Below are positions 80-34,735 of a DNA stretch of 64,000 nucleotides, piece after piece. Positions within the stretch are counted from its first letter, which is position 1, and every line of letters begins with the position of its first letter. Below the pieces are notes generated by a model. That model saw only the letters and a program-made list of their open reading frames with translations, ran no database searches and had not been told where the DNA came from. The DNA lies in contig NC_087377.1 in the NCBI RefSeq assembly GCF_963675165.1, forward strand, positions 6,837,122-6,901,121, given 5' to 3'. The stretch is from Halichondria panicea (Eukaryota > Porifera > Demospongiae > Suberitida > Halichondriidae). A program made the translations under genes and the position numbers.

Positions 80-3000
80 CTTCCTTGGAGTCTGTTGCCA
101 CAAACTGGAGTCTCGTGTCAGACTTAAACATCACTAGGGTGCTGGCAGGAGTGGTCTTTGAGGGGCTGGATGGGAATAATCCTTCGATCAGGATACGTAT
201 GAACGAGAGTGACGTCATTGACACCTCTACACTGACGGACAAGTGAGTGCATGCGTTCTTTTAGCTGTGTATACAATTAGAGCAGTAACCCCAAAACTGT
301 GGTTTTTAAAAATTCCCTTCTTTGTTCAAATTGTTTCTTCACTTACTAGAACTTGGATCCCTGGTCCGAAGTCGTTCAGAAGTGGATCCTACCACAGGGA
401 GTCGTTCCTGTTCATCCAAGACATGTTAGAGCGAGCTATGTCAGAAGAGATGTTGGGACACTCCATATTAGCACCCGGCCTCTACATGCAGCAAATGCCC
501 TATCCGTGCTTCCAGTATGACACGTACGTTGCACTAGCTACTGTAATATACATGTCAGAGGAGATCCGACACGAGCACTTCGATTAAGCTAAAATTGAGT
601 TAATTATAGTTCTATGCAACAATGACTTTAACGTTGAATTTTGCACGTAATCAAGCCTCATCGAGGTACTTGTGTCGTACCTCCTTTGAGTACATGTACG
701 TAGGTCGTAACTACTGAGTTACTAGCAGCAAGAAGCATGAGCTTTTTTTTTGCATGTCTCAGGCTAGTATAGCCTCTAAGACTATACTAGCCTGTATAAA
801 GCCATTTCCGTTTGTGATACATTTATGTAGAGTGTGTGTTTTACTTTTCTACTTATTATGTCTGTATTGTAGTCACCCTACGTATACAGTTTGTATAAAC
901 AGTTCACACGCAATAATATATTCTATACTACCACTGTGACCCCAAAGTTTCCATAGCATGTGTTGCACTCGTAGACCAGACCACCTCTTAATTACAGCCA
1001 CTGTTGGTGTGCCCAAGGCAGGGGTGATTAGGTTTCACTGTACTGGTACTACCGTTTGAAAAAATAACCATACATGCAATTCATTTACCTTTGGAGAGCA
1101 TGCATGAACACTTTCCATCAAAATTAGTGTTGGTTGTCTCCATCCAGGTTTGGATACTCATTGGAATTTGTGTTCCCTCTGGCCATGCTTTTTGTGTGGT
1201 TGTTCCCGGTTGCCATGACGGTACGTGGGGTGGTCCTTGAGAAGGAAAGTCGGCTCAAGGAGTACATCAAGATGATGGGTGTGTCTGACACACAACTCCA
1301 CCTCTCAAAAATAATCGTATCAGGTGACCTTCGTAGCTACTAGGTTTAAGGTTTAAATTTTATGCTGGAGAGACTAGCACACAGTTGAAACAGTACTTAG
1401 ATTGGTTGATTTAATTGTAGTTTGTATCCAAAGTTACCCTGTTTTCCCCCTGGCCTCTAGGTTCTGTACTTCTCCTGTCAGTGGTTCTAATCACCATCAT
1501 GCTCAAGGGGGGCGGAGTCTTGCCGTTCACGGATTGGTCGATTCTCTTCCTCTTCCTCAGTGTGTATGGCCTCGTCATGTTAGCTCACAGCTTCCTCATA
1601 GCCAGCCTCTTCAACAATGCCAACCTTGCAGCCTGTGTCTCATCTCTGGTCTACTTCATGGTGCTTTTCTTGCACACTGCACTCGTGTTTGTCAGTAGCC
1701 TGTCATCCTCCGCCGTGACACTGAGTGTGAGTTAGGAACCGGGGTAGGCATACGGAGAAACCTCTAAATGTGGACTGTTTTTGGGACCTATGAAAGTGTT
1801 ATCTTTACATGTATATAGGTGTTCTGCTTACAGAGATAACTATAATTATGTCCTTCTATTTTGCTAATTGTGTGCATACATGTACAATGTAAACGGTATC
1901 GGTGAGTCCCACGTTTTCCTGTCGTTTAACTGGTATTATTAATACATATGCACTGTATTTCATTATCAAAAAGATTGCTCTCTGTTAATTCTTGACTTCC
2001 ACTATTTAACCAAGAGTTTTCCTCTGGGTCTGCCACCCCCATGTACATCCACAAATAGCCGTTTCAAAGATTATTCCATTCCCCTCTCCCGTCCTGCAGT
2101 GTCTTTGGGCCCCCCTAGGGTTTGCGTTTGGCTCCCAGCTGCTCATGACGAGGGAGCTACAACAAGTGGGCGTGACTTGGGCCAACATCAGCGAGTCCCC
2201 CGGGGCAGATAGTGAGATCTCCCTCGCCACCATCCTCATCATGCTCTCAGTAGACACTCTCCTTTATTTCCTGGCTGCTTGGTACATCGAAGGTGTGGCT
2301 CCCGGTCGCTATGGTGTTGCCAAGCCACTATACTTTCCGTTCACACCCTCCTACTGGCTTGGGCAAAAGGGACGCGATTGTAAGAAGGATAGTCCGAGAC
2401 GCCATAGACTTTTAGACGAAGGAGACTCTTCAGACTTGGCGTGTGAGGAGAACCGTTGTGAGGAAGAACCTGCTAATTTGCCGTTAGGAATCTCTATAGA
2501 GAACCTGACAAAGATATATCGTAGTAATTGTCGGCGTAAGAAAGTGACAGCTATCAAAGATCTCTCTCTCAACTTCTTCGAGGGTCAGATCACAGCTCTG
2601 CTCGGGCACAACGGAGCAGGAAAAACCACCACCTTGTGAGTACTTTAACTATTAAACCTTATGAGTACTTTAACCTATACTCTCTCAACTTCTCTCACAG
2701 ATCGATTCTGGCTGGACTGTTTGAGCCAACTAATGGAACTGCCAATATCTATGGCAATGACATACGTCAACACATGGACCTGATCCGACAAGGTCTGGGA
2801 ATTTGTCCTCAACATAACATCCTAATCAGCGAGTAAGTTTTTCATGTCCTGTACAGCTAGTATCATGTGATAATCATGTGATCATACACTTGCAGACTAA
2901 CTGTGGAGGAGCACTTGCTCTTCTTTGGACTACTGAAGGGACTCTCTTGGAAAGAGTCGAAGAAACAGACACCAGAGTGAGTTGCATGCCCTCAGGCACT

Positions 3001-6000
3001 GTACTTTATCAGTGAACCTTAATTAGCTATAATGTTTACTGCTACTTGCCTTAAGATACGTCTACACAATGATTACTTTATTCCTCCACACACACACAGA
3101 TGGCTGTCGAAGGTTGGCCTTCTCTCCCACGCCACCAAACTGGCCAAGCACCTCTCTGGAGGCATGAAGAGGAAGCTCTCCATCCTTCTAGCATTTGTGG
3201 GCGGGTCTCGCACCATTATCCTGGATGAGCCGACTGCAGGAGTGGATACGTTTGCACGACGTCAGATCTGGGACTTCCTGTTGAGGAACAGAGACGGGCG
3301 GACTATCATCATGTCCACCCATCACATGGACGAGGCAGAGATACTGGGTAAGAGACGGTTAGTTACATGTAGTGCTATTGAATCTTATGGCTATTTTCAT
3401 GAACAGTTTGAGTAGTTATTCAACCGTACACATTTTGCATACATTTACAGTTTAGTAAAAAGTTTAGAATATGTAACACTTTAAGTACAGTTTCGTCATG
3501 TCACAGCCTCTCCCCTCAGTATATAAGAGTTATTCAGCTGTACATATACAGTATCTACAATCATGTAGAATAAAGATATTTGAGCAGCAATATTTACTCT
3601 CTCTCTCCCCTGGTTGTTGTAGGTGACCGTATTGCCGTAGTATCCAAAGGTTCTCTCATCTGCTGTGGTAGCTTTGAGTTCCTCAAACAACGATTTGGAA
3701 GGGGACACAAACTAACACTAGTCACAGCATCACAATCCACCACCCCCTGTGAGGGTGAGGATCCCCAGTGTGATCGTGTGGAGGCTGTAACAGAGTTTCT
3801 GGAGAGTTTTGTGACGAGTGTGACCCTTGATGAAGTGTGTGGGCGTGAGCTACGTTATCTTCTGCCATTTAGTGGAGCTAGAGCGAGTGTGCTGACTCAG
3901 CTGTTTCGAGAGCTGGAGGGAGCCAAGGAGCATCTGGGTGTGGTCTCATATGGACTAACGGCATGCTCCATGGAAGAGGTGGGTGGTTTATGTGGGCATA
4001 GATCAGTGTACAATATTGATTGTATCAGCCATAGTAGTGCATGTATAGCCTCTTGTACGTTTTTGTACAGAACTTTGTTTTTTGATTCGGATGCTTCATG
4101 CTGTACCCTATGTTTTTTTCTTTCACTCTCTGTTTCATTCTAAGCTCAATAGAGGTCGCCTTGGGCAGACAAAAAATGGCTGTAAGGTTGAAACACATAC
4201 ATGCTATATAGGAGATTTGAGCCTTACTAGCCTGACTGTAGTGTACACATGGTGGTGACTTTGTACACTTTAAGAAATTCTATATTGTGATGCACGTTCA
4301 CGTTGTTTTCTCATACAGATCTTTATAGAATTGACAGAAAAAGATGATAAAGTTGCAGAGGACCAAGATACTTCTAATAGTGAAGCCAGTGTTGACCCAG
4401 AGACTGTGTCCATCGACCAGCTTGAAGAACCTCTAGTGGAAGAGTCTGTAGTTAATGTGGCTACCAAAGGTGAGTCAGACGTACAGTGTACATGTGTATA
4501 ATTATTTAGGACTGGCTTTAGTAAAACATGTGATTGATTGCATGGTTATGTTTTGTTTATATAGCTTTAGGTAATTGACCGTAATAAAAGATTGTTCTAT
4601 ACGTGTACAAAATGTATTATTTGATTGCGATACGTTGAGTGTAAGATACTTTGTTGCCTTTTCGAAACAACACTAATCTCTATGCTTTATATGCTTTATG
4701 TTGTCTGTTTTGTGACAACCCTTCGCTATAATAGTGCTTCAGTTTGTATAACGCTTTCTTGTAATCTGCTCCAGGATTTGCGAGGCTCTCGTGGCTGGCT
4801 CTGTGGTGGACCCAGTTTGTGGCCCTCATGGTCAAGAGGTTTCACTACACCAAGAGGAGGGTCCTGGCTCTGCTCATTCAAAATGTCCTCCCTGCTGTTG
4901 TAATTGCCATCACTCTGCTCGTAGCCAGAAGTTTGCAGACTGTCAACGACCCTCCACCACTTGAACTCTCCCCTGAACAATGGTTCACTGTCAACAGAGA
5001 CAATTACATGTTCGTGGCGGGTTACAACACTAATGAAACCAGCCAGTACATCGACACCTTTTCCCGACCGTGTGGCGTGGGTGGACACCGTACATCTGAC
5101 GATCCCTCGGGCTGTTTCCAAGGCAACGGTCCGTATACAACTAACCACTCCTATACCTGTGACGGCAACCCACCTCTCCAGTATTCTTGCACTTGTGGTA
5201 ACGGAACCAATCTCGCCTGCAATGACCCGGGTTCATTCCCAGATCAGACTCCACTATGTTATAATGGAACTGGAACCGGATCTAGAGTACAGGACATGAC
5301 TCAAGCGTTCGATTCCAATAACCCTCGAGTGGCAGATGAGAATCTCGCCACATACCTACTGCACAGCAAACAGTCCTTTGTACAACGTCGATATGGAGGC
5401 TTGTCGTTTGGTTACGAGAGAGAGGAGTTTGACGCTTCGTTGGATGCAGGGGGTGGTCCATTCCTGGCTACCAGAGCAGCTGCGAAAGTGTGGTTCTCTC
5501 TGAAAGGTTATCATGCCTCACCCACGTACATCAATGTGGCGAACAATGCTCTGTTGAAAGGCCACCTGGAACCAAGCAAACAGTCGCAGTATGGTGGGCT
5601 GACTATAAGTATATACATGTACAGTACATGTTCGTGTACATGCTGTAATTGGGTGATTTTGTGCACAACATGTTGAGGAGAGGCCATGGCACAGTAGTTT
5701 GGTGCTGCAGTGCTCTGCCTGCCTTGTCTAAGATATTGATTGGTTATTGGGCAATGGCTTCTTGGTACACATGCTTGTATGATAACTTTTGCTCATGCAA
5801 TTACTTCAGTATACATTCATGCATGTACATCGAATTTTAATAGAATCTTGCTGTTTTGTAAAAGTTTAACCTTATTATTGTGTATTTATTCTTCTACAGG
5901 CTTCAAAACGTTTTCCCATCCTTTTCCCACCTCTGATTTTGATAAACAGTTGAGAGCAATATGGTGAGTTATATAAATAGAGTTATACATGTATATAAAT

Positions 6001-9000
6001 AGAGACATTGAAGCAAAGATTGTCCGTGTGTAAAAACAGCTGCCTGTAGTTAGTAGACCAGCTGTTACATAAGTACACTAGCTCTAGCTCATTCTTCGTC
6101 TCTCCACAGGTCAGGGGGTCCGTGGTACTTGCTGCAAATATGTGGAGTTACGTTTTCTCTTGGTTTTGTCGTGGCTGGTTTTGTGCTACTCCTAATTGAG
6201 GAGAGATCCAGTAATGTGAAACACCTTCAACTGGTGTGTGGAATGAAAAAGGCAGTGTATTGGCTGGCTAACATCTCTTGGGACTTTCTGTGGTACATTG
6301 GCTTCACAATCATCACGGTAGCCATCTTCCTGGCGTTCCAAGATCCCTACTACACCCGGCCGGATACTCTCCCTCTGTTTGTAATCAGTCTCTTATCCTT
6401 TGGCCTCGCAATCACACCATGGGTCTACATTATCTCGTTCCTGTTCCAGTCACCGGCCACAGCCTACGTTGTGATATTCTGCATGAATTTTATGGGAGGA
6501 TTTGGACTTGTTATCGTTGATCTCGTGTTTTTCTACCAGGATTTTTGGAGTGAATATCCTGTACCCCTCTACTATCTAGCGGCCATTCCCATCCCTGCAC
6601 ACAATCTGGCTCGTTGCTTGATGTACATTGGATTTGACTTCCCAATGAACAATTTGTTACACGATTGGGACCCTAGATTAGGTGATGTTCCGGATCCATA
6701 TACAAGAATGGCTCCGTATTTTTATTCTCTCCTGGCTCAAGCTGTCTTTTTCACTCTGATTCTGATGTTGATTGAAGTGTGGCCGTACCTGAGGGGAGTC
6801 ATGTGAGTCTTGTTTAATGATATGCATCAGTGAATATACATCGCGGGCGTACAGTAGAGAAACTACCTTTTTAGTCCTATACAGTACGTGCATGTGTCTC
6901 ATATTCAAACCTGATTTCATGATTTAGTCTCATTTTGGTCCGCTAATTCTCTGCACTAAAATGTTGCTGCTAGGTACACTTTTTCATTCAGCCTATCTGA
7001 GAATGTACGAAGCATAATTATTTGTATTCGTACGAAGCTTGCACAACACAATTAACATTGTATAGGTGTCGAGTGCGTTCGTCCACGGCGTCTCTTCCGC
7101 TTCCACTTGACACAGACGATGAGGTCTGCAGCGAGAGATCAAAAGTCAAAGAGGGGGAGGGAGGGAGTGACATACTGACGATAGAAGACTTGTCTCGAGT
7201 GTACCACACTAACCTGCATCGGAACAGGAAGGTGGCGGTTAATCAGCTGTGTCTTGGGGTCAAAAAGGGAGAGGTGGGTCAACATAATTATTTTTAGCCA
7301 CATGTGTACATTGTATTTACGTACATGTACATGCATGTAATTATTGTTAACTAATTGGTTTTGGCTCTATTCAGCAACCAACAGAAGAACTTGACATTAT
7401 TGTAATTATGTATGTACATGTACATACATAATTATAATTATGTCATTGCACACACGTCTTTATCCCTTCTCTCAGTGTTTTGGTCTGCTTGGTGTAAATG
7501 GAGCCGGCAAGACCACTACCTTCAAGATGCTCACTGGAGACATTCGACCCTCCGCTGGGGACGCAATGGTAGCCGGTCACAAACTGTCCAAATCTCGTGG
7601 CCGTGTACAGCAATCAATGGGTTATTGTCCTCAAGTGGACGCTCTCATCGATCAGCTGACGGGTCGCCAACATCTAACTCTGTTCTCTCGGCTGAGGGGA
7701 GTGTGTGGGCGTGATATGAAGGGTGTGGTGCAGGGGACATTGGATAAGCTTGGACTGAGTGAGTATGCAGACAGACCAGTGGGAGCGTACTCTGGAGGTA
7801 ATCGGAGGAAGTTGTCAACGGCCATAGCACTGCTCGCCCAACCTCCTGTAGTGCTACTCGATGAACCAACCTCAGGTGGGCCAGGGCAGGTGTTTGTATG
7901 ACTTATAGTTATGTGTAACTATCAACTTTTTGTTCATGCATGTGAATACCTATATTGTGCAGAGAATTATATGTATTCCTAAGCCCTGTGTTTAGATCAA
8001 GGTTGTTTGCTGTTTTTCTGTAGTTGATTTAAAATTGTGCATTAATTTTGTTTAACTCCTATTACCCTCCTCTTTCTTTCAGGAGTTGACCCTCGTGCCC
8101 GTCACTTCCTGTGGTCACTGATCCGAGGGCTGGTGAGAGAGTCGACCCAGTCGGTGGTCCTCACCACACACAGCATGGCCGAGTGTGAGGCTCTCTGCTC
8201 ACGAGTGGCCATCATGGTCAATGGAGAGTTCCACTGTCTTGGTTCTCCTCAGCAACTCAAGTCCACTTACGGCAATGGCTACAAACTAAAGCTGAGGGTG
8301 GCTGGAGAAGTTCAGCCTGTCAAAGAGTTTGTATCTCAGGCTTTTTCTGGAGCAATGCTCAAGGTATAGTTGTGTGCACAACATGCAGCTAGCTAGGTAG
8401 TGCAGAGCATATACTTGACATTGCGTTTGGGCCAATAATTATTATGGTGTAATTTTATGCGATTAATACTTTTCCGATTAAGCTATAGTGATTATTGTGT
8501 AATAGGAATTTATGCGTGTCGGCCAAAGGATACTTTATAGCTAAGCACTACAGTACCTGTATAATTTTATTATGTCATTGCCAAGCCTTTTTCTTGGTAA
8601 TTATGGTCATGTGTTTTTAAACAAAATTTAATTTGTTAACTAGCATACCCAAAATTGATATAATGTACAGGTATAAGTAAGCACTATATGTACTCTGCCG
8701 TACTTGTGTAATTCAGTTGCAGTGAGAAAAAGTAATAGCTTTCACCCATTAATTTGGTAAATAAGTTCAATGCACTAGTAATAACATACTCACCTTTGTA
8801 CGAGTCATGTGACTACCATCCCCTTGGCAGGAGGAACACTACACAACCCTACTGTACCAGCTTCCCACGTCAGAGGCTCTTTTACTGCACACTGTGTTTG
8901 AGACCATGGAGGGAGCCAAAGATACTCTCGGCATACTGGTGAGTGCATGGGGGGGATTCATGCATGGTCATGTGACCCTGAGGAGTGCCATTAGCTTTGA

Positions 9001-9530
9001 CCCCAAATGACTATAGTGCGCTAAACTTGTAGTGATTCGTGCATACATGTCGGACACTGGCGAGTGGAGCTTCATATGGCCGGTCATGTGACCTTGAGGA
9101 GTGCCAGTACCACCACCTCGCAATCAATTTCATAATGTTGTCTGTGCTTGTATAAAACATTAATTAAAATATACAAGCACGTTGTGTACAGTGACTCTTT
9201 TAATTGGGAAATAATTCATGTTTGGTAACAATTAATTGTTTTGCAGCATTGTTTTTTAAAACGCAAAACCGGGTCTTTTCTCAGCTACTAAATAAAGTAT
9301 TATTATGTGTATCTAGTAGACAATGAGTATTACATGTCCATAATATTGCTATAATATCATGTGACCTTACCCCCCCCCTCCCCATGCAGGACTATAATGT
9401 GAGTCAGACGACTCTGGACGATGTGTTCATCCACTTTGCTAACAGACGAAGTGAGGGGGCGGGGCTTGAATGTGGAGTGGAACTGCCTGACATCATTCCA
9501 AGTGACGTGAATGAGACTACAACACTGTAA
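80..9530 (+). CDS. ABCA-subfamily full ABC transporter, 5'-truncated by window edge
   Basis: Exports or flips lipids across plasma or lysosome-related membranes (family knowledge). Exons: 80-242, 350-523, 1148-1323, 1461-1726, 2100-2635, 2701-2832, 2896-2976, 3100-3347, 3623-3978, 4319-4469, 4775-5593, 5900-5963, 6110-6802, 7066-7273, 7476-7875, 8083-8363, 8831-8938, 9390-9530; all phases join, giving about 1664 residues with TAA at 9528. Order: end of first extracellular loop, TM block 1, NBD1 (Walker [12 protein letters not shown]-loop CPQHNIL, signature [10 protein letters not shown], Walker [12 protein letters not shown], switch STHHMDE), TM helix, a large loop coded by exon 4775-5593, TM block 2, NBD2 ([39 protein letters not shown]), and a short tail with [10 protein letters not shown]. 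Both NBDs look catalytically intact. The first membrane helix and start codon lie left of base 1. It looks closest to the ABCA3-like group, but the exact member cannot be named. It is convergent with receptor copy A. Confidence 0.95.
558..685. repeat. Hairpin MITE, GAGGTC-GACACGAG family
   Basis: Imperfect inverted repeat in an ABCA intron. The left arm (gatccgacacgagcacttcg) pairs with the right arm ending gtcgtacctcctt. The interior contains the stretch caacaatgactttaacgttg, which recurs in the element at 13068-13202, so both belong to one family. Confidence 0.75.
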
Positions 9531-10028
9531 AACTATTTTATTGCATAATCATCATCATTATAATTATTTATTATTACAGAATCCTCTGTATATAATTATA
9601 TCTGTTCATTTGTTTGTTTGTTAACAATTATGACATAATTAATTTTATAAGTTTTGTGTGAGAACTTAATATTATTTTATTTCTCTATTTTGGGGGGTGG
9701 TGAGAAAACTTGCATGCAGCGGCGGAATTAATGTGTCTTCGATCTAGTCTTGTATACCTGAATCATCATGATCATGCATAATTATATATAATTGCATCAT
9801 GGTATAGGTATGGTACGTTAGCGAATGTCTCCTAGTAATCATGTATAGGCTGCAGTATAATTATAATAATACGTTGTACCAAAACAGCTAATTTAAAAAT
9901 TATTTGTTATTCTATTTGAGCAAGTACACAATTATATAGCAGGTATAATTATAATACATGCATATTAATTTTGGCAAAACAAGGCATGCAATATTAAACT
10001 GTACATGTGTATATACTTAATAATTATT

Positions 10029-10318
10029 ACCGTATATATTATAATGGGAAATTTCCGTGAGGTGCAAAATTTCGCGTTTTTGAGGGCAGAGCATATGCAA
10101 TTAAAAAATATTAAAACTAGGAGAAACTCCCACATACCGGTATTTCACATGCATGCTAGCTCTTGGTGGGTGTGGTTTCCTGGCATTGAAATCAAGGGTA
10201 ACTTTCGTGGGCAAGCTGACCATGAAGTCAAATGAAATTTTTTACTCCCGAAAAAATCGCCGTCTTCGAGTTGAGCGAATTTTTTACTCCACAAAAGTCA
10301 CCCGCTATATACGTATAA
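10029..10318. repeat. MITE, 'CCGTATAGCGGG' TIR family, diverged copy
   Basis: The left end taccgtatatattataatgg, followed by gaaatttccgtgaggtgc, matches the start of the copy at 18028. The right end reads cacccgctatatacgta in inverse orientation. The interior shares aaaatttcgcgttttt with 18028-18259. Confidence 0.7.
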
Positions 10319-10334
10319 TAATTATACCCTCCCA

Positions 10335-10402
10335 GAGGTACGTCTACGACACGCGTGCTTCGATTTAGCAATTAAATCGAGGCACGCGTGTCGTACCACC
10401 TC
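10335..10402. repeat. Short hairpin, minimal GACACG-family MITE
   Basis: Near-perfect palindrome: gaggtacgtctacgacacgc on the left faces gcgtgtcgtaccacctc on the right around an AT-rich loop. It is a shortened relative of the 558 and 13068 elements. Confidence 0.75.
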
Positions 10403-10929
10403 ATCACCAAATTTCCTATTACGTACATGTAGCTAGTAATATTCTGTGTCTCAACTGCATATTACATGAAAGTCAGAATTAGAATGAGCAGGATTGCTTG
10501 CATTATTGTATTATTACAACTAGTATGCTCACGACTGCGAGACTTATATATAAGCGCAAGAGATCATCTGCCTCATGAAAGCGGTCACAAATTGAGCATA
10601 AAAAGGAGAGACATTGGCCAGATATAATTATAATAGGCCTTTAATCCATCCCCATGCATAATTATATGCACTCTTTTCTCGTAATATAATTTATGGTGGA
10701 ATGTGAACTGGTAGAGATGTCTACATGTCCAGGTCCACCACTCATGCAGATTGGACCACCAGACCAATGGACCTGGTCCGGTGGTCCAATGAAACAGGCT
10801 ATCGAATAGTATACAACTACCATTAAAACGTAAAAATTTCAATCGAAAGCTCGAGCTATATAAACAATCATGTGTACCTCTCTAACAAGAACAGTAATTT
10901 AATTATTATAGGACGGTTGCACATCTACC

Positions 10930-13900
10930 TCATTTGCTAACTAAGTGACTGTATGTGTTCTTTTTACTGCATCCACTCAGACACGGTTGAAACGTGAACA
11001 AAAACCCATCCTACAGTGGACAAATGTGGAAGAGCATCAATGTAGGACGGAAATATATTATCATAATTATGCATGCACATCACATTCTAGTACCAAAAGG
11101 CCAACTTGTTAACAAGAGGATAAGGAAAGTGGTTCATCATGCATACAGTGAATGCTAGAACCTGAGATCAAAGTGTACAAAACTCATTATACCTTGATAA
11201 GAAAGGGAAGATCTTTCCAGAAGGAGTAGTTGGGAACCACCTCAATTCCACGTGCACCCTTGACTTGGAACATGACGATTGAACCAATAATGAAGTACAG
11301 TATCACTGCTCCTAATACCCTACAGAGCATATACAGTCATGGGTGATCATGACTGACTTAGCAATTACGATTGTGAGATTTTATTAACTACAGAGATAGG
11401 GCAATCAACTCACACACATATTAAGACAATCCCAACAATTCCAGGAGATACTCCACCAGGTGGGATCTTGGCCGCGAAGACCTGTTTTGTATTAATCTCA
11501 TGTTGTGAAATAACACTTACGTGGAATTATCCTAGTAAACTCGTATCTGATAGTAATACGGTCACTATATAGTGTACTACCAGCACTACAAATTAAGGCA
11601 AGAGAGATGACTGTACTGAGTATTGAAGTTCTTATGCAGTTCATAAACTATGCTCGAGTTCCCCATTATTAGAGAGAGAGGAGGGCAAGAAGACAGTACC
11701 ATGGCATACCTTTGCATAGTACTATAAACCAGTACTTACATAGTCAAGTTCATTGTCGTTCACAGGATTCTCTCCAATGAACACAAAGGAAGGATTACCT
11801 TGTGCTGTTACTGTCACTGATATAACCCCTTTCCTGGCAAAGCATGCAGATAAAGATTATGACAATGCAATACACGTACGTACCTTTTATATGACGCAAC
11901 AATCATTACGCTACGAAGCCTAGTCGCAGAGATATACGTTTGTACATTACGGTTATGCTTTTATATATGTATGTGTGTGCCTGTCTGTCAGTGTGTGTGT
12001 ATAAGGTGCATGGCTACAATTCAGAAGTGGTCGCGGCTAATTCACGGTCCTGCCTCGAATCCAATGGCTACTTTAGTGGTTCTGTCTCGAGGAGAACGAA
12101 TCATCATGCTCTCTTATTCCAAGTTAGAGTGGAATCAAACTTTCATTTGCCAAACAACATCCAAAACCTCATATCTGACCGTATTTTCATGTAAAAACCC
12201 ATTAAAATTGTGTGGGGCTGTCATAACTGACCAGTATACAGGATAGTGCGGTTCCCACATTTCAAGGCGAGTATTGATCTAGCTAGCAATCCGGAGTGAA
12301 ATGGCCGGTATACCAAAGTGACATAAATAATAAATAATAATCAGAGAGCCGCATAGAAAAACTATCGATAGCAAAAACGATTTTCCCAGTAACATGACTC
12401 GCATGTGATGAAGTAATCGTAAAATTGACTAGTAATCTGCTTATAAATGTTAACCTTGACATTTCTAGGGGTGGGGTAAGGGAATTGATAGTTGCAAACA
12501 ATATGCGATCATGTGATACTAGCTAGTCGTTTGTGTTCAGCGTTTAGAGCTGCTCACTAACACTGATACGGAACGTTACTTCAATCTCTTCACAAAAATC
12601 ATATAAAATAGAGGTTAATCCTCTTCACTTGCACTCGTTACTCACGAAATTATGTGTGTTGCGTAATGGACCCGCATGCAAGCTTGCGTGCAAGTCATCA
12701 ATTATGAGCTATACTCACGTGTTTTTACTTTCATTTAATACATGCAAACGTTTGCAAAAATATTTCGGCAGTAGACAATCCACCCATGCATGGAACATTA
12801 GTTTATTCTGTACATACCTTGTTTTTTCATCATACGTATTATCTCCATCTCTGTACGTCACTGTGAATTGGTTTGTGTCAGATTCACTCGCAAAAGTCCA
12901 AACAACACTACTAGAAGCTCCAACCACAACATTTGCCTGGCTAGTACGGTTACTTTGGCAAATCTGTATAATTATTAATTTTAGTGGAAATGGAAGTGTG
13001 ATCTCTAGCTATAATAATTTATGATTGTGAAAAACGTCCTTCTTGGATGTTAAGCAATTAAGCAATAGAGGAGGTCTGACACGAGTATACCTCGATTAGG
13101 CTAAAATTGAGTTAATTAGTCACATGCAACAATGACTTTAACGTTGGATTTTGCACCTGACCAGGCCTAATCTTAATCGAGATACTCGTGTCGTACCTCC
13201 TCTGGGTTTCAACTCACCACAACAGGCTTGCTTGTATTCCCACAGTCTATTTTGGCACCACATGGAGAGAACACGTAATCATACGTCATGCCACTGTCTT
13301 CCCCAGAAAAATAAAAACTGCATTTCGAAAAAATATTAGCCTTATATACAGTACATAAAACGCTAAAACGCTGAGAATGGAATCGCTGACATTAAAGAAT
13401 TTGCAAGCTGCATGCGCTGTGCTAATGCCACTCAGCTTCGTTCAAGAGTATATTACATTGTTAATTTGTAACTTCCGCAGTAACCATAACTTCCGCTTTC
13501 TAATACTTAACCTGTGTCTTAGACCACTTCAAACTGATTACCATATACAGTAAGAGCAGGAGAGATACGGAAACTTTGTGGACTTCGGACAAACGTTTCA
13601 TGGTGCTGCCACTACTTCACTGCATTATGACTAGGAAATAATTATGCTTTGTTCAATGCTGTTATAAACATACTTTAATTCTTCTAAATAATTATCGTAT
13701 TGGATAGATAGACGTGGGCGTTCTCCAAAAATGTTGCACTGTACATGTTGGAACCCCCTTTTCTTTTTCCTGGATCTGTCACTGTGATGGAATTCAATCG
13801 CACGGTACAGAAACTTACAATTTGGTGTTTTTTCACACAAATCAAGCTTTTAATGTTCTACTACATGTACGTAGACTAATTTTCCTAGCCCAAGATTCAC

Positions 13901-14048
13901 AATTTGATTCTTAATAAACTTACGGATAAGTGAACTTTCCCTCCCAGCTTACACCATTGCAATTGCAGGGATGTGTACAATTAGCCTTAAATTCAGCATT
14001 AACACTGGCTAGAGCTAGGACCACCACAGACAGAATCTCAAACATCAT
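10930..14048 (-). CDS. CD-MPR/ATG27-like receptor, copy A
   Basis: Predicted type I membrane receptor of the cation-dependent mannose-6-phosphate-receptor/ATG27 superfamily, expected in Golgi-endosome-lysosome sorting. Exons (descending): 14048-13924, 13317-13218, 12963-12818, 11833-11740, 11481-11414, 11319-11193, 11010-10930; they sum to 741 nt, 246 aa. A signal peptide (MMFEILSVVVLALASVNA) precedes a short Cys-containing segment. The MRH-like ectodomain has FSPCGAKIDCGN, an ICQ motif, VVWTFASESD and FTVTYRDGD. A TM segment follows (GIVGIVLICVVLGAVILYFI), then a juxtamembrane block IEVVPNYSFWKDLPFLIKDG, which is the family hallmark, and a tail with PCLSGC. The usual MRH Cys after the R-containing strand is replaced (VTVTAQG), so sugar binding is not assured. 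The first of two tandem Met codons was taken as start. First of three tandem paralogues. Confidence 0.85.
13068..13202. repeat. Hairpin MITE, GACACGAG family
   Basis: Lies in intron 2 of receptor copy A. The left arm gaggtctgacacgagtatac pairs with the right arm atactcgtgtcgtacctcc. Nearly the same sequence as 558-685 in the ABCA intron. Confidence 0.85.
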
Positions 14049-15900: not shown

Positions 15901-16950
15901 GTGAGACTATAATTATACAACACGTACTGTAAATTTTGTTTTACATTGCTTGTTTTGTTTTTGTATTATAAATTATTATGTCATCATAGAATCAATCCCT
16001 AATGTGATACTATAATTAGGTTGTGTGAGGACGTAATCATTTTACTTCTCTATTTTTGAGGTGGTAAGAAAACGTGCATACACATGCATGCAGTGGATCT
16101 TCTGGTCTTACACCTATACCCGATAATAACCTGAATCATGGATATGGTGCTTGCATCATGGTTTCCAGACAGCTCCAGCTTGGATAAAATGTCAAAACAT
16201 TATTTTGTGAAAGTAGATACTAATAACTATAATTCGTCGCCACATTTAATTTACCACTAACTCAAGCTCCTAACAGGTTGCCTGAGAAACTGAATTGTCT
16301 GCTCACCACCTGTACTGCATGGGTGAGGTCATACCTCTGCAGTGGATAAATACACATTTCACTACCGCTGTATATATAATTATATAGATACACCAGACAC
16401 AATCTATCCCAGGCCTATAGCTGGCACTTTCAAAAGATTAGGGTATTCAAAACAATACGGAGAGAATTCCTCGAGCATAAAAGAATAGTAACTGGTAAAA
16501 AAAGCATGAAGTACTCACCCCATGGACGCATTGCACTGTATGGTAAGCCTACTGTTCTGGATCCGATACATTCCCATGCACTCGTTTCACTTCATGAGGG
16601 CCCATACAGTGACTCTCTCACTAGTACTAAGTTTTTATAATACATGAAAACGAGAATTAGAATGAGCAGGTTTGCATAATCAGTATATAATTATCAGTAG
16701 GTCAATAATTGCCTTGCTAGCCAGAGAGGTCATGCATGATCGTAAAAGCAGTCGCAAATCTGAGACATTGGCCAGTAAGCCTTAATTCCAATCCCATGCA
16801 TACTCCTTTTTGTTTATATTATTTATGGTGGAAAGCGAAATGGTACAGAAAAAATTTCATTAGAATTAAACTCAAATAAACAATCGTAGGCAGGCAACTA
16901 CCACAGAACAGCAGTATAAAAATACAAGTAATACACCTCACTTTCTCTAA
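15901..16950. other. Spacer between ABCA pseudogene and receptor copy B
   Basis: No gene seen. The left part (to about 16150) parallels the sequence after the ABCA stop. The right part (16600-16950) parallels the 3' flank of receptor copy A, for example gagacattggccagtaagcc compared with 10608-10650. Confidence 0.65.
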
Positions 16951-22900: not shown

Positions 22901-25863
22901 ATACATTAGCTAATACACACTGGACAGATTGGTCATAATTACTATTAGTTTAACATCCGACAGAAGACTTAATTGGATTTTGCCTCAAATCGCTGAGATT
23001 TAATGAAAGCACCGCGGGTGCTGATGCCTCGGTGGAGGTGTCAAAGCTACATAACATAAAGCTACTATAGCTACCGTATAGCGGGTAATTTTCGGGGGAC
23101 AAAATATTCGTGGTTCAGCAATATTGAAGCATTTCATGGGTAATATTTTGCAGTTGGAGCTTGGACTGCCGGTAAAGGTAGGCAAGGTCGCTTTATTCGT
23201 GGCGTGGGTAAAATATTCGTGGTTAGACCTTCAACCATGAAAATCACGCCCCACGAAAATTACCCTCTATACGGTATATTAGCTTTTATACACACATTAT
23301 TTTTTGCAAATTGATACTGTGCATGCAGAGAAGAGGAACTTAAGGAGTGGGTAATGAACGACTATGATATTGTTACTAGAACGCTAGCTATTGGTAGCTA
23401 TAGTGCAGAGCTACATAAGTACTAAGTAGAGTAGCAACACTCTATATGGACAAGTTTTGCTACACACTCTTCTGTAATTATAGTATTCTAAGTAAGCAAA
23501 ATAGGTAAACTCGAGAACGAAGCATTATTTTTCAAATCTACGAATTAAAAACATGACTAGAAGCCTATAGAAACAGAGCAGCTGTAGTAGTCTACACAGA
23601 CAGACAGACATGCAGACAGACACATATACACGTATACCTCGCTTGCGCATGCACACCTAGAAGCTGTAGAGTTATCAGTGAAAGAGAATGGTATAGATTG
23701 ATGCACGTAGATATATAGGCGTGTTCTATGTACAAAAAAATAATATTTATATTTATGGTACTTGAGAATAGTTCTCCCATAATAATATTCCCCACTTGGG
23801 GTCTGTATCATAGCAACTGGGTGGGGTTTAACTACCATAAACTCCCGCATTCCTCATAAACTCCCTTGCCTTGAGGGCGCACTGATTTTTTACTAGATCT
23901 ACACAGCCAAAAAGAAGCTAGACACTTGTTGACAAGGGCAGGACAGAATGATGGGTGGGGCTCGCTAAACACCATGAAGGCTGGAGGAAGGGTGGAACTC
24001 ACTGCTTGGACATTGAAAAGTTAGTGCGTAGAACTAGAAGCTCAACTCCTCCCTAGTACAAGTCCAGCACACTTCCCAAGAAACGAGCCGCTCGTACTAC
24101 TCTCACAAAGCGAAAGGAAGACATCTAAGCTATAATTTGCAGCAAAAGCCCAGCAAACAAGCGGCTCCTATACTACTCTTAACAAAGCGAAAGGAACTTT
24201 AGGAAGAAGCCAAAGCTAGAATCCCAGCACTTCCATACATCCAGCTCCTCCCCCATGCAGCCTTGCAGCAAAAGCACAGCACACGGCCCAAAAAACGAGC
24301 GTCTCCTACTACTCTCGAACAAAGCCAAAAAAAGAAACTAGAGCTTCTCTCTTCCATTCTAGTTCTGTTATTATGTTACTAGACAAAGCATCTATAGCTA
24401 CAATAATTGTTATGTTATTACATGTGTATCTTCTTGTAAATCATAATACAATGTACAATGTTGTAGTTTGTAGCCCAGAGCAATCTATAGTACCAGTACT
24501 ATAGCTCATAGTTCCCTGCTAAATACACTCAAATGGGATCTAATTCAAATATAACTACTCGCACATTTGTGGATTCTACCCTCCAGACCAGCTGCACTGT
24601 ACCTTATGATTGTGGTTACATGTAGTAGAGTTACCACCAATGTTATGATATGTCATGTAGTAACGTGACGACATGTCAACAACATTTTGGGGGTTTACTG
24701 ACGTAAAGGTAAGGCTGTGTTTGGGGGGTTTACTGACGTAAACGTATACACAGAGTGCTTTTTCATGCTTATGTTCCTATAGATAAGTATAGCTAAGGCT
24801 GTGTATCTAAGTAGTGTGCTGTGTCCCAAATGGTCACAAATATGAGGTGAGTGGATGTTTAGCAGCAAAACTACTCGTAGAGACAGCAAAAAAACAATTC
24901 TCATGAATTATTCATGGGTTTCCACGTTAGAAGTAAACCTTCTCAGGTAACCAAGGACGGAAAGGAACGTTTAGGCAACTGCATTTAGAGCCAAAAAAGA
25001 CAAGTAGCCAAACTGAATTTTTACACATTAAAAATCGTGTGCCGTTCATTGCTGGTCCCAGTCCTTAGGTTACCTGAGTTGGCTAAAACCGCATGGAAAC
25101 ACGGATGGCACCTCGACAGTGCTGCATTGCCAATCCCTCTATGCTCCAACAACCAAACGGTGCTTTTTTCCAACCACAGATAAAAAGTATGTGGTTACTA
25201 CAGTTGTAGATCCTAGTCTTTGGTATTTACCCAAGCCAGCCGTGGGCACGGGTTATAGTGTAAGGCAACGTGTTTAAGTACTATGCACCTATCAATGATA
25301 TGCCCCCTCCCCCCACCTGCATGGGGAGCGCCTGGGGGAAATGTAGTGGAATGGTCAACATCTTGATCCCCCATTGGGTGGGGATTGGTGGGGCCGGAAT
25401 TGATCTCTTCAACGAGGGCAGCTATTGTGTACAAGTAGCTGTCATGAGTACTGTACAGGTAGCTGTCACGAGTACTGTACATGCGCGCACTTGAGACAGA
25501 ACCAGACAGTTTTTATTGTTCTCTTTGAGGAATTTCTTGTCAACAAATAAAATTGCGGCCTACTCAACATGGGACCGGGGGATGGGGGTAACATATAGGG
25601 AAAGTACAGTTGATACGGCCCACAAAGGTTACTGATAATGTCACTTTTCCTACATCGCTCCAGGTGGGGAATATCATTGATACATGTAGGTGCATGCACT
25701 ATAGATCTACAGCAATTTGCTAGCCAAGATTTACTTACGGATAAGTGAACTGTCCCTTCCAGCTTACACCATTGCAAGTGCAGGGATCTGTACAATCAGG
25801 CTTATATTCAGCATTGACACTGGCTAGAGCTAGGACCACCAGAGACAGAATCTGAAACATCAT
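16951..25863 (-). CDS. CD-MPR/ATG27-like receptor, copy B
   Basis: Second tandem paralogue with identical exon structure and phases. Exons (descending): 25863-25739, 22870-22768, 22233-22073, 18498-18411, 17993-17920, 17827-17701, 17013-16951; 741 nt, 246 aa. Signal peptide MMFQILSLVVLALASVNA; ectodomain motifs FSPCGAKIECGN, ICQ, VVWAFANESD, FTVTYGHGD; TM region; IEVVPNYSFWKDLPFLIKDG identical to copy A. The cytosolic tail is shorter: the second Cys of the PCxxxC pair is deleted (PCRSKKNTYSSL). Introns 1 and 3 have swollen to about 2.9 and 3.6 kb with repeats. No stops or splice losses were seen, so it is probably functional. TM exon 6 differs from copy A by only a few bases, which suggests a recent duplication or conversion. 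Confidence 0.84.
17101..17616. repeat. Dispersed repeat with cagacagaca tract and 'tatacctcgcttgcgcatg' end
   Basis: Intron 6 of copy B. It starts tgaaagcaccgcaggtgctg and ends with a CAGA-type simple tract and cgtatacctcgcttgcgcat. The same start and end flank 22995-23660. Inverted or partial relatives occur at 20085-20290, 21320-21360, 26095-26130 and 35175-35330. Confidence 0.7.
18028..18259. repeat. MITE, 'CCGTATAGCGGG' TIR family
   Basis: Left end acagtatagcgggaaatttt, right end cccacggtatacggta. It lies in intron 4 of copy B, immediately beside exon 5. A truncated sister sits at the equivalent place in copy C (27568-27600), so this insertion predates the B/C split. Confidence 0.75.
18941..19069. 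repeat. Hairpin MITE, related GAGGAGGTC family
   Basis: Ends gaggaggtctgacgtgtgca and gcacgcatgtcggacctcct are inverted copies. An internal segment (ttgtagtgattcgtgca) also occurs at 9030-9045. Confidence 0.7.
19309..20080. repeat. Foldback element built of 'gtatactttt' repeats
   Basis: About 770 bp. The outer ends tatggcgctataaattatta and taataatcatagcgccata are inverted. Inside, the left arm holds several ggtatacttttt units and the right arm several aaagtatacccc units, so the whole element can fold on itself. A 38-bp unit (ccattgctgaattcttttaa...) is tandemly doubled at 19791-19866. The long minus-strand reading frame here is only the repeat read through. Intron 3 of copy B. Confidence 0.8.
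20869..20962. repeat. Tandem duplication
   Basis: The unit agctgttaccatggacacag occurs twice, with flanking gcatgcgcaat/gcatgcacag context, about 60 bp apart within intron 3 of copy B. Confidence 0.6.
22353..22743. mobile_element. 391-bp TIR element, 'ACCGTATATCTTCTAATTTATC' family
   Basis: Perfect terminal inverted repeats of about 24 bp: taccgtatatcttctaattt on the left, aaattagaagatatacggta on the right. Sub-terminal copies of ctaatt..cggaca repeat several times within. No reading frame. Sits in intron 2 of copy B. Confidence 0.88.
22995..23660. repeat. Dispersed repeat (same family as 17101) with nested MITE
   Basis: Begins tgaaagcaccgcgggtgctg and ends with cagacagacatgcagacaga and cgtatacctcgcttgcgcat. 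An intact MITE (23072-23277) is inserted within it. Confidence 0.7.
23072..23277. mobile_element. MITE, 'CCGTATAGCGGG' TIR family
   Basis: TIRs taccgtatagcgggtaattt and aaattaccctctatacggta; 206 bp, non-coding. Interior has ttcgtggttcagc and related motifs shared with 28434-28597. Confidence 0.85.
24045..24330. repeat. Degenerate tandem repeat, about 100-bp unit
   Basis: Three diverged units in intron 1 of copy B. Each contains agcaaaagc-cagca-ac and gcg-ctcctactactct followed by acaaagc-aaagga. Non-coding in all frames checked. Confidence 0.6.
24916..25101. repeat. Inverted-repeat element
   Basis: The arm gtttccacgttagaagtaaa with tctcaggtaaccaaggac on the left faces gtccttaggttacctgag and gcatggaaac on the right. 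Small hairpin MITE candidate in intron 1 of copy B. Confidence 0.55.
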
Positions 25864-27033: not shown

Positions 27034-30000
27034 CTAACTAAGTGAACTGTATGTGTTCTTTTTAATGCATCCACCCGTACACGGTTGAAACGTGAACAAA
27101 AACCCATCCTGCAGTGGTGTGGAAGAGCATCAATTTAATTATGCACATCATTCACCATAAAGCCAACTTGTTAACTAAGGGGACAGTTCATCATGCACAT
27201 GCTAGATTCTGAAATCAAAGCGTACTTATACCTTGATAAGAAAGGGGAGATCTTTCCAGAAGGTGTAGTTGGGAACCACCTCAATTCCACGTGCACCCTT
27301 GACTTGGAACATGACGATTGAACCAATAATGAAGTACGCTATCACTGCTCCTAACACCCTACAGAGCATACAGTCATCATATATCAATGGGTGACTTAAC
27401 ATTTACAATTGTGAGGTTTTATTAACTACAGAGATAGGGCATCGACTCACAAACATATTAAGACAATCCCAACAGGTCCAAGAGGTATGCTGGCAGGAGC
27501 AGTATCACCAGGTGGGATGTTAGCATTGAATTCCTGCATGTGTTTGTTGACAATCTTCTCATGAAGTACAGTATAGTGGGAAATTTTTTTTTTTGAAATT
27601 GGGCGTGCGTAAATGCGCCACAAAATGTTTGACCACACCCCTATTACATGCTAGTGCATCACAGTAGGTCTAGTTACATATTGCACATCATAATTATAGA
27701 CAGTACTAATGTGATGATGTCATTATTCTATAAAATTTGAGGGGGGGGAGGTTCACCCCAGCCCCCCCCATTAGATGAAACCCTGACGTTCATTACAGCA
27801 GTTCAACACTCTTACTCTTATCTACTCTTGCATATATTCATACTCAAAGCAATGAGCCAGAAACTTGAGTCTCAAACTTCGAGTGGTTGCTACACTTTCC
27901 TTGGTTTTTTTATTATGAGATAAACGATCAGGAATACAAGAATGAACTAAAGTGCTGACTCAGCGGGTTGAAGAAGGTTGAAGGCGAATTCGAGGCCAAC
28001 ACTGTTTGCATAGCATATGTTCAGCCGCGGTTTAAATCGTGACCAACCTCCTCTGCATGGGTTACTATAAAAATAATAGTACTTCCAGCACTACAAAGGC
28101 AAGAGACAAAGGTAAAAGATGACTGTATGAATTGAAGTGTACTGAGTATTGAAGTTCATAATAATTAGTGCCATATAATTATACTATAAATACTTACATA
28201 GTCAAGTTCTTCAGGCATGGAATTCTCTCCAGAGAATACAAAGGACGGACCAAATTGTGTTGTCAGTGTCACTGATATAACCCCTTTCCTGGCAAAGCAT
28301 GCATTATGATAATGGAATACTGTATAATTATATGTATGCTTGATCAGAGGCCGCGGCTACTAAATGGCTGGCAGAGGAGACCACTGTTTAAGAGAGGCGT
28401 TTATTAACTTCAGCAAATTTAACAACCTTTAGTTACCGTATAGCGGGTATATTTCGAGGGTATAAATGTTTGTGGTTTTCGCAGATTAGGCATGAACCGC
28501 AACATTTATAGCCGCGAATTTAATAAATCCACGAAAACCTTTCTAAAGGCATTTCCGCGAAAATTTATACCCTCAAAATATACCCGCTATACGGTACACT
28601 GTCATCAGAAGTTATTTTTACCAAAAACTCGAACTCTGCTTTTCAAAAGCACTAACAAGCTGCTACCGTAGATACCAGTATTAATATGGCTGCCACGTAC
28701 AGAGACATAGCCTAAAAGTTCCACCGAGGCTATTATTTGAGTGCACACTCAAATAGTAGCCTCGGTGGAACTTTTAGGCTGCACAGCTTTTATACAAGAG
28801 CAGTCTCTAATCAAGCATATACGGTATATGTACAAATGTTTTATTCATCTATATGCCTCAGAGCCTAGTTGCAGAAGTACGTATATACGGTCAAGCTTTT
28901 GTGTTTGTGCGTGTGCCTGCCTGTCTGCATGCACGTAAATGCCTGCAAAATTGATTTAGGCGCCTTAAGGTGTTGTATAGGGAATAGACAACCACTCATG
29001 TAGTAGGAACATAATTATGAAGGATTATGGTGTTTACACATACCTTGGTTTCGGTGGGGTATCAAACGTATTATCTCCACCTCCGTACGTCACTGTGTAG
29101 TGGCTTGTGTCGGATTCATTCGCAAATTTCCAGGCAACATTACCACTACCGGAAGCTCCAATCACAACGTATGCACTCTCAGTAGTATCAGTTGGGTCCA
29201 TTTGGCAAAGCTATATACTTGTAGTAATTTTAGAGGATATGAAAGTGCTATGTACAATTTACGAAAGCTGGACAAAAAACAATGGGAAAGATGTTCTTGA
29301 AAGTCAAGCAAGCAATACCCATGCAGGTTTCCACTCACCACAACAGACTTGTTTGTATTCCCACAGTCTATTTTGGCACCACATGGAGAGAACGTGTACG
29401 TATACTTCTTGCCGTCGTTGTCTTCCGACGAAAATATAAAACTGCATTTAGAAAGTAGAGTCATAATTAAGTTAATATAAAGTTTTCTGTTCTGTTTACG
29501 TAGTACGTTTTTGGTTTGTTAAAGTGTTACAATTTACCGTTGCCCCGGTACAAGTACATTTTGCAGATAAGTGTTGTAAAACAGTAAAACGAGCACGAGT
29601 ATTGTGGCTAAACTGCATGGTTATGTCTAGCTGTATGTTTAGCTCTAGATCTACAACAAAGACATAAAACATTATCATTCGCTAGGTTCTTCAACTTTTG
29701 GACAATTGCAGTCGCTATGAATCCTATCTCTGCTCTGCAAGGTTAGAAAACGCTAGTTTAATAGCTAACAGCTAGCTGCATGCGGCCAGAGTACAGAGTA
29801 TAGTCTAATCTGGCACTCTGAAGTTTGTTCACCTCTATATACCAGTCGTTTGGTTTGGCATAAATTGCTAGCTTGATCTTTACTGTACAAGACTCGCCCT
29901 GAAATATGGCCACTCGCTATACAGGTCAGTTTTGGCTGCCCCAAACTAGGTTTTTAATGCCTTTATTATGGGCAGATACGACGTTTTGGGTGTGGTTTGG

Positions 30001-32390
30001 TAGATAAAATTGTGGACTACACTTAAATAGAAAGCACAATGATCCATTATTCGAGAGAGAGAGAGAGAACCGAAAAATTAGTCATTAGATTCAAGGTAGA
30101 GTCGTTTTTTAGCCGCGGCTATTTTCTGAAATGCATGCAGCCACCTCACTATTCCGGCCAAACTGCACTGTCCCAAGGGTATGGAGCATGGCCCTGAGGT
30201 ACACGCATAGTAGGTTCGAAGTTGTGAGTGATTCAACTGAGGTTACGCTATGTCAATTCCAATTCGCTAAGTTAATTCCATTTCGCTACAATGTACTTCA
30301 ATTCGAGGGTACGGCAATTCAACTGAGGCTCGTCAGATCGCGGGTACGGCAGTTCGTTTTAGGCTATCACACTCAACATTTTTCGCCATTGACAATGGCA
30401 TTGTTTACATTATAATAATACACAATGTAGGCCTACATTCATTGTTCCTGGTTGTCAATGTCAATCTATAGACTATTCTATTGACAATCAGCTTGCTCTG
30501 GGCATATACTATGAACATTGTAACTGTGTGATTTGACTGTCTGAAAACTAAGAAAAGTGGCTCTGTTTGCCAGACTCTCTCCCCTGGGAGGAGTCTGGCA
30601 TCAAAACTAGATCTCTCTAGGGTTTAAAATGGATTTTCTCACACGTGGGGATGAGCGCGCATGCATGCGCATACATACACAGAAATAAGGGGTGTGTCTG
30701 TAAAAGGTCAAGTTCACAAAATAATGGCTACTACAGCTTAGCTAGCTTTACAGCTCTTTTCTGACTCATAGTAGCTAAACTAACAAAAGCATGAAAAATC
30801 GCTCTGTGTTACACTAGCTACTTGACAAAAATCAAGATTATATTTTCTTCGTTTCCAAATGAAATAATATACATAGGGAACCTGAAGAGGAAGTATGAAA
30901 TGCTAGACAAAGATAGGAGTGGTCCTTTAAAGTAAAGACCAAGGAGAAACAAATCAGTAGAGGAGTAGATCTACATAGATAAATCTGTGCTAAGCTAAGT
31001 ATTAGCATTGTTCAATGTCACAATGATGGATTGTTTTGTATGATTGCAGTGATCATGAATGGTGTGTTCTATCCATGGTGTGTTTATCGTAGAAATCAAA
31101 GCTCCAGAAGACTCCCAGAAGCTTACAGACCATCTCTCTGGCAGTCAACTTCTTCTTCAAAATGAAATACAAACTCTTCTAATTGCAGCGCCACTCCAAT
31201 AGAAGCACCAATTTTACAAAATAATTTTTATTTTACTCCAATTTTGCCGCCGGTTAGGTAATTAGAAAATAAATTATTAGCCTTAAATCGAGGCTACTTG
31301 TACAACTGATTACTGTTTTAGCCTCGTGGAAACCTACTATTTTTGTTAATTTTATTGCTAGACATATCACTATATAAGTGCCAAACTGGAAGTTTTTCCC
31401 TTGTTCTATTTGTGCACCACGAAAATCACACAATTATTTTTAGTGGCACTGTAATTAGAAGAATCTCTAGCAGTATTAGCTGTAGTCAAGCGAAGGCAAC
31501 AAAGATTGAAAAGAGGGCAAGGCACAGATAATTCTCAAATTTACCAATCCGTTTCCTTTTCTATCATAATACCGTAAAGCGGGTTATTTTCGAGGCACTA
31601 AATTTTCGCAGATTGCCCAAACTAAAGTATTTCGAGGATAGCGGTTCAAATGACCACACCCCTACAGTAAACCAAGTTTTCGAGCCACTAAATTTTCATG
31701 TTTCTGGGTCATCCTCGAAAATAACCAGTTTTACGGTACCATATACGTATACAAAATATCCTTAAAACTGCATCACAAACGATTAACAATCAATAGTACT
31801 CGTGGAATAAGGGATTATCATAACAAGCACTGGCAAGGTTAACCGCACGTTCGAATACGCCTCGTGCAATTAGTATCCTTGCCATTGCTTGTTACTCGTG
31901 CTATTAATCCCATATTGCACTCTTAGCCATACTATTAATTATACTAACTATACACTTTGGCGAATGAGTCATTTGAACTGACTTGGCGGTTTTTAATTTG
32001 GCATCTCAGGCATGGCTACTACAGCAATGATGTTGTATCCAACGGTTATAAATTTGGCGATCATAAATTTTCAAACTCCAAAAGTAGCGATCTCTGACTT
32101 CGTTAAAAGTGTCGCCTTAAAATAATACTCTTTTTTACGGGAGGCCTTCAAATTGGTCAGTTTAAAATTTGAATTAACGAAATTGTCCGCTAGATCAATA
32201 TGGTAGTAAACATGTACGATCTATAGCAATTTGCTTCACCATTGATCAACTCAACTTACGGATATTTTAACTTGCCCTCCCAGCTTAGGCCATTGGCCAT
32301 GCAATAGCAGGGATTTGTACAATCAGCCTTAAATTCAGCATTAACACTGGCTAGAGCTAGGACCACCACAGACAGAATCTCAAACATCAT
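27034..32390 (-). CDS. CD-MPR/ATG27-like receptor, copy C
   Basis: Third tandem paralogue, same seven exons and phases. Exons (descending): 32390-32260, 29441-29339, 29210-29044, 28288-28198, 27533-27451, 27358-27232, 27108-27034; 777 nt, 258 aa. Signal peptide identical to copy A (MMFEILSVVVLALASVNA). The N-terminal Cys segment is longer (CTNPCYCMANGLSWEGK). MRH-like motifs FSPCGAKIDCGN, LCQMD, VAWKFANESD, YTVTYGGGD. TM segment, then the shared IEVVPNYSFWKDLPFLIKDG block and a tail with PCTGGC. The juxtamembrane ectodomain has an extra Ala/Pro segment (PPGDTAPASIPLGP). The ectodomain exons differ most among copies while the TM/tail exon is nearly invariant. All splice sites are canonical, so it looks intact. 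Confidence 0.84.
28434..28597. mobile_element. MITE, 'CCGTATAGCGGG' TIR family, compact copy
   Basis: 164-bp near-palindrome: taccgtatagcgggtatatt and aatatacccgctatacggta at the tips, ggtataaatgtttgtgg inside. Intron 3 of copy C. Confidence 0.9.
28709..28780. repeat. Perfect 72-bp palindrome
   Basis: The arm agcctaaaagttccaccgag is mirrored by ctcggtggaacttttaggct around tgagtgcacactca. It will form a strong hairpin in single-stranded DNA or RNA. Confidence 0.85.
29838..30185. repeat. Diverged pogo-like element, end-truncated
   Basis: Shares long stretches with 32939-33362: ttttgggtgtggttt, acacttaaatagaaagcaca, tagccgcggctattt, cactattccggccaa. It lacks clean termini. Confidence 0.7.
31570..31739. 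mobile_element. MITE, 'CCGTAAAGCGGG' TIR variant
   Basis: Tips taccgtaaagcgggttattt and aaataaccagttttacggta; interior cactaaattttcgcagattg, which is also found in the 50658 copy. Intron 1 of copy C. Confidence 0.85.
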
Positions 32391-33530: not shown

Positions 33531-33533
33531 CCA

Positions 33534-33741
33534 TAATGCGTATTACTAGAATGTTTTACGAGCATCAAACATATATATGCAAACTTGTCGAGGGATATGA
33601 TCAATTCGCAACAATCAAAATTGCAAAATCTAGTAAAAATACACACAATCTTTGCCAGAACGCTATAGTTAGATTGCAAAGGTCTACCATGATTGGGCAC
33701 ATTCGCAAAGGTTTTTCACCTGCAAAATTCTAGTAATACGG
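33534..33741. repeat. MITE, 'CGTATTACTAGAA' family
   Basis: Ends gcgtattactagaatgtttt and attctagtaatacggta are inverted. Interior attcgcaacaatcaaaat is shared with 40871-41093. Confidence 0.75.
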
Positions 33742-34492
33742 TATACGGTATGTTTTTGCTTAAGCTACTGTGTAGTCGATTTAATTAATTAGAAATTTGT
33801 GTTTTTCTCGATTAATTTGACATCTTCAACTACACATAATTTATGCGCATGCGCACATTAATTAATCACACATGGCGTCATTTGAGTGGCAAGGATCAGC
33901 AATAATCAAGAGGTGGCATCATGCAGAGGAGGGAGGGGGACGAGAAACTAATAATTGAGTTTATATGGCCTTACTCATGTGTAAAAACGTCTCATTTGCT
34001 TCACTTTTGCAGTGTATACAGTGTATGTACTGTTGTTGCCATTGTTAGCAATGTACACTCTATCTAGGTGCATGTCTGTTTTCTGTGTCACAGTTACTAG
34101 CAAAGAGTGTGCAGACAAAATATTCATTTTGTTTTGTTTACACTCAGTGAGTTAAGACGATGAGGCCGGAGCAGTCTGAATCAAACCGACTATAACTGGC
34201 CATGCAGAATAGAGGTGAGTACGTGCACACAGTTGCCGCCTGCAGTCTATACAGTATACAGGCCGGGGTAGACACTGCAATAAGGCAATAATTGTATACC
34301 TACCCTTGGGTTCACACTGTTGCAAATTTTATGTATGCTAGCTATAACTGATACCCGTCAAAAAATAAAATAAAGCCGTATCCCTGCATCAAGAAAAAGG
34401 CGTGAGAAACAATTAGGCCTTGGCAAGTTATAAGTTATGCTCCCTATTATTGGAAATATTGAAATTATCTGACCTCCCCCCCCCCCCCTCTA

Positions 34493-34735
34493 GGACTATA
34501 GTGTGATTCAGACGACTCTGGACGATGTGTTCATCCACTTTTGCCAAGGCAACAGAAAGAGTGAGGAGTGAGGCTTGAAAGTCAGTGGAACCATAGATAA
34601 TTAAGGCAACAGATCTCAGGTTCACATACAAGTGTGATTCAAACGACTCTAGACAATGTGTTCATCCAAGGCAACAAAAAGAGCGAGTAGTGAGGCGTGA
34701 AAGTCGGAATCTTAGTGGAACCATAAATGGATTAG
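34493..34735 (+). pseudogene. Two tandem relics of the ABCA last exon
   Basis: 34493-34600 repeats the C-rich intron end and exon start at 9370-9470: gactatagtgtgattcagac then gactctggacgatgtgttca, coding [11 protein letters not shown] before breaking. A second diverged copy starts near 34633. The gagactacaacactgtaa that ends the true gene recurs at 35004-35022. No other ABCA exons were found nearby. Confidence 0.83.

Follow-up and report, generated by a model that had tools for sequence, protein, structure and literature searches.

A receptor gene like that of the cation-dependent mannose-6-phosphate receptor (CD-MPR; mannose-6-phosphate, M6P) appears to have multiplied in tandem next to an ABCA transporter gene in the window, a stretch of 64,000 nucleotides from the sponge Halichondria panicea. 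Our best explanation, with a probability of roughly 0.7, is an ordinary tandem amplification of the receptor, in which at least one event took along half of the adjacent ABCA gene as a passenger that was probably broken from the start.

Three intact receptor genes stand in tandem

The window carries three intact receptor paralogues on the minus strand, as an earlier note on this DNA had claimed. Receptor A lies at 10930-14048 (exons 14048-13924, 13317-13218, 12963-12818, 11833-11740, 11481-11414, 11319-11193 and 11010-10930), receptor B at 16951-25863 (25863-25739, 22870-22768, 22233-22073, 18498-18411, 17993-17920, 17827-17701 and 17013-16951), and receptor C at 27034-32390 (32390-32260, 29441-29339, 29210-29044, 28288-28198, 27533-27451, 27358-27232 and 27108-27034). 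The models were built from aligned exon boundaries, on the basis of homology and splice sites. Each gene has 7 exons with consensus splice sites and no internal stop, the products being 246, 246 and 258 residues long; B and C share 74-75% protein identity with A, and the length differences from copy to copy preserve the joined reading frame. In the Pfam search of the whole proteins, A, B and C matched PF02157 at 56.8, 54.3 and 45.7 bits (E 2.3e-15, 1.4e-14 and 5.8e-12), all above the curated cut-off of 25.4 bits. An intronic block of receptor A (12389-12558) is 76% identical to one of receptor B (21635-21801) and was not found in C. It was rejected as an extra exon, because the copies have no common intact frame with splice sites, C has no match, and leaving it out still gives models with joined frames.

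The intact ABCA gene at the left edge

The left edge of the window (1-9530, plus strand) is occupied by the 3' part of an intact ABCA1/ABCA4/ABCA7-like transporter gene, recognised by collinearity with a paralogue on contig C6 and by Pfam and PDB matches. In tblastx the two genes are collinear from about -2114 to 9476 in some 30 blocks. Its start lies outside the window, further upstream by about 2.1 kb or more, and position 80, which had been taken as its start, is internal. Pfam matches to ABC2_membrane_3 and ABC_tran were obtained, and the best PDB match of the first nucleotide-binding domain (NBD1) was human ABCA1 (E 1e-94). Like the full transporters of the ABCA1/ABCA4/ABCA7 type, the gene contains two ABCA-type TMD-NBD halves, and nothing unusual for that type was seen in it; the relic described below is a fragment. 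Between the ABCA genes of C1 and C6, dS was about 1.2 and dN/dS 0.11, and therefore both genes are constrained. The C6 gene, which looks intact, is the one close ABCA copy outside the window; when the genome was searched with the last exon, no copies came up beyond the gene and relics of the window and the C6 gene. Receptor pieces were searched for beside the C6 gene, and none were found.

A probable joint duplication of an ABCA fragment and a receptor

A collapsed ABCA pseudogene, relic 1, lies between receptors A and B (14128-15883, plus strand). It starts at the equivalent of about ABCA 2237, runs through the NBD1 exons to about 3182 and continues with the last exon (equivalent to 9335-9516), with a large internal deletion of about 6 kb and frame-breaking deletions in several exons. 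Its best ABCA match scored 216 bits, compared with 21-28 bits for eight shuffled sequences. Together with the C6 collinearity, this score bears out the description of an intact ABCA gene before A and a pseudogene between A and B.

Beyond relic 1, a non-coding flank at 16021-16849 is collinear with 9654-10717 in three blocks (pairs starting at 9654/16021, 10459/16637 and 10634/16776) and leads from the relic into the 3' end of receptor B. The interval from relic 1 to B thus repeats that from the ABCA gene to A in four collinear exon and flank matches, with order, strand and flanks retained. These matches argue for a single joint tandem duplication of ABCA and receptor sequence, which is a well-supported origin for the unit of relic 1 and receptor B. 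A further match, between 557-691 and 13067-13207 (both plus strand, the latter in an intron of receptor A), was discarded as duplicated flank: it is a dispersed, MITE-like repeat of 135 bp outside the block duplication, with at least 40 copies in the genome and, in the copy at 13067, inverted ends of 22 nt. The same repeat also occurs at C3:7676270-7676402, about 0.7 kb from an exon matching CD-MPR.

The left edge of relic 1 lies about 50 bp from the point (about 14078) where the homology of the receptor A 5' region with B and C ends. Since the relic starts in the middle of ABCA and so close to the 5' end of receptor A, it was most simply incomplete from birth, with the duplication breakpoint inside ABCA, and was probably never a complete gene; a later deletion could have removed its 5' part instead. 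Under the reading of truncation at birth, the event would have copied about 12 kb, from mid-ABCA through the ABCA 3' end and the receptor to a point just 5' of the receptor start codon. The receptor would have been copied whole and have remained functional. The ABCA copy, as it lacked the 5' half and the promoter, was most likely never a gene, and it would later have shed most of its body, leaving the NBD1 and last-exon fragments.

Relic 1 and the ABCA gene have diverged by 0.098 (CI 0.075-0.125), of the same order as the dS of 0.23 between receptors A and B and somewhat less than a rough expectation of 0.15-0.17 for the age of the A/B ectodomain split. The shortfall may mean that relic 1 arose after the split, or that conversion has acted on it.

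Receptor C and the distal relics

Two relics of the ABCA last exon are present beyond receptor C, as had been noted, both on the plus strand. Relic 4a occupies 34464-34591 and is probably older than relic 1. Relic 4b (34615-35021) consists of a local duplicate of 4a at 34615-34744, a dispersed repeat, and an exon tail at 34958-34991 and 35003-35021, so that the relic probably continues through 34958-35021. The repeat within it (34765-34871) is different from the 135-bp element and has at least 12 copies in the genome. In the last-exon tree, which is weak at about 110-160 aligned bases, 4a and 4b group together outside the ABCA gene and relic 1. This branching points to an older or separate event as the source of the distal relics.

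Neither nucleotide nor translated search gave any convincing ABCA sequence between B and C (25.9-27.0 kb). The distal relics have no receptor and no flank in common with the other units, and searches for ABCA or receptor sequence upstream of the window (beyond the ABCA gene itself) and in 36-64 kb found none. The self comparison that the earlier note had proposed therefore gives a divided answer: collinear flanks, including the three non-coding blocks, are shared by the ABCA-A and relic-B intervals, and none were found at receptor C or at the two relics beyond it. A block duplication that includes both genes is supported for relic 1 and receptor B and is not supported for the rest.

Weighing the origin of the locus

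The fuller version of that claim, in which repeated duplication of a whole block of ABCA and receptor was followed by decay of all the ABCA copies and selection on dosage or diversity kept the receptors, is in our judgement unlikely. It would account for the collinearity of relic 1 and receptor B with ABCA and receptor A, for the alternation of ABCA relics with receptors, and for the constraint on the receptor reading frames. However, relic 1 starts in mid-gene beside the 5' end of receptor A, no ABCA sequence was found before C, and the distal relics come without receptor or flank. The constrained C6 gene further indicates that ABCA duplicates are not always lost, and an identity of 74-75% to A speaks against dosage. 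The contrast of surviving receptors and dead ABCA copies is weakened accordingly and says little about selection, because the ABCA copy was probably truncated at birth; selection inferred from differential survival is not supported.

At the other extreme, receptor and ABCA fragments could have been duplicated independently, with the A/B collinearity arising by chance or from separate local events in the same neighbourhood. The lack of any link between C or the distal relics and the ABCA/receptor flanks fits this idea, as does the divergence of relic 1, which is lower than that of the synonymous sites of receptors A and B. Against it, four separate blocks follow one another from the ABCA end to the receptor end in both units with order and orientation unchanged, and we regard it as improbable. 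Tandem receptor amplification with a truncated passenger resembles what is known from birth-and-death families, where a complete gene and part of its neighbour are duplicated, with later decay and gene conversion; the locus is no different in kind. It provides a clean small case of a complete gene amplified along with a broken neighbour, and a warning that differential survival does not amount to selection where one partner was never duplicated whole.

Sequence evolution of the receptors

In pairwise Nei-Gojobori comparisons of the ectodomains of A, B and C, dS was 0.25-0.34 and dN about 0.24. The dN/dS among the three receptors, a comparison that had been suggested before, was 0.80 for A and B, 0.98 for A and C, and 0.70 for B and C, with bootstrap intervals that all include 1. 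In neutral simulation, the receptor ORFs all stayed free of stops with a probability of 0.0003-0.005. This low probability and the frame-keeping length differences suggested that A, B and C are probably functional, with constrained reading frames. Of the two forms of selection put forward in the earlier note, dosage is not supported and unlikely, because the receptor proteins are about 25% diverged; diversification of the ectodomains is possible and unproven. That the outer part of these receptors changes unusually fast is the only mildly interesting feature here.

The transmembrane exons and the intron between them are far more alike than the ectodomains. The longest run between B and C comprised 15 shared variable sites, a length reached in none of 10000 permutations, which indicates gene conversion homogenising the membrane exons of B and C. 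The core of the tract covers a transmembrane exon and the adjoining intron (17824-17944, minus strand; partner 27355-27475). After the duplications, the ectodomains would thus have diverged fast with their frames kept open, and conversion between B and C would have evened out the transmembrane exons.

Likely nature of the receptor products

By their architecture, the products of A, B and C would be type-I membrane lectin-like sorting receptors. They share with CD-MPR a signal peptide, a lectin-like ectodomain, one transmembrane segment and a short tail, and the tails are alike in an FW-D-L motif and cysteines. In the sequence alignment, Q78, R124, E145 and Y155 of receptor A align with the Q, R, E and Y lining the M6P pocket in bovine CD-MPR, and are invariant in all three receptors; the chance of four such columns being invariant is about 0.09. 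In contrast to CD-MPR, with its six ectodomain cysteines in three disulfides, A, B and C match just one of five bovine cysteines that fall within the aligned region and lack the four later ones, and extra cysteines occur near the N terminus. The acidic-cluster dileucine signal (GGA/AP-1) of the CD-MPR C terminus is likewise missing: no tail contains DxxLL, and the tails end in YSHL or YSSL (YxxPhi). Because of the four lost cysteines and these endings, we call the receptors CD-MPR-like and not CD-MPR. All three also exceeded the curated cut-off for ATG27 (PF09451, an MRH-type membrane protein), mainly over the transmembrane segment and tail; for A and B this match was weaker than the one to PF02157, and for C the two were about equal. 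A PDB profile search with A, B and C did not find CD-MPR, whereas the canonical gene on contig C3 did match it. CD-MPR binds mannose-6-phosphate and sorts hydrolases; a sugar ligand and a sorting route for A, B and C would be suggested by these likenesses.

The array might represent lineage-specific M6P-receptor-like lectins, with selection diversifying the ectodomains around a preserved sugar pocket and gene conversion holding the membrane and sorting half alike. A lysosomal sorting receptor would then have given rise to a small family of recognition receptors; we consider this reading distinctly unlikely.

Related receptors and other features

Members of the receptor family were seen in this genome both as single genes, namely the canonical CD-MPR on C3 and a related gene on C7, and as two tandem arrays, that of the window and one of three CD-MPR/ATG27-like genes at C16:1795-1803 kb. 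The C16 genes differ in cysteine pattern and adjoin a kinase-like gene. No ABCA sequence was detected beside the C16 receptors, so amplification in this superfamily needs no ABCA. A literature search found nothing on CD-MPR or ABCA duplication in sponges. A tandem-expanding family of sorting receptors may be of interest, the array in the window having lost disulfide cysteines with the sugar-pocket residues apparently kept.

To the right of the distal relics, a single long ORF of 869 aa (35897-38506, minus strand) encodes NACHT and leucine-rich repeats, as in an NLR-like immune receptor, and a sulfotransferase lies at 41303-41983 (plus strand; PF03567, E 1.7e-24). In a further ORF at 46978-47622 (minus strand), a unit of about 35 aa (SNKAPRKYSLFNQPGGSKEPDEDGRSQRVYSYNPTAPT) is repeated three times in nearly identical form.
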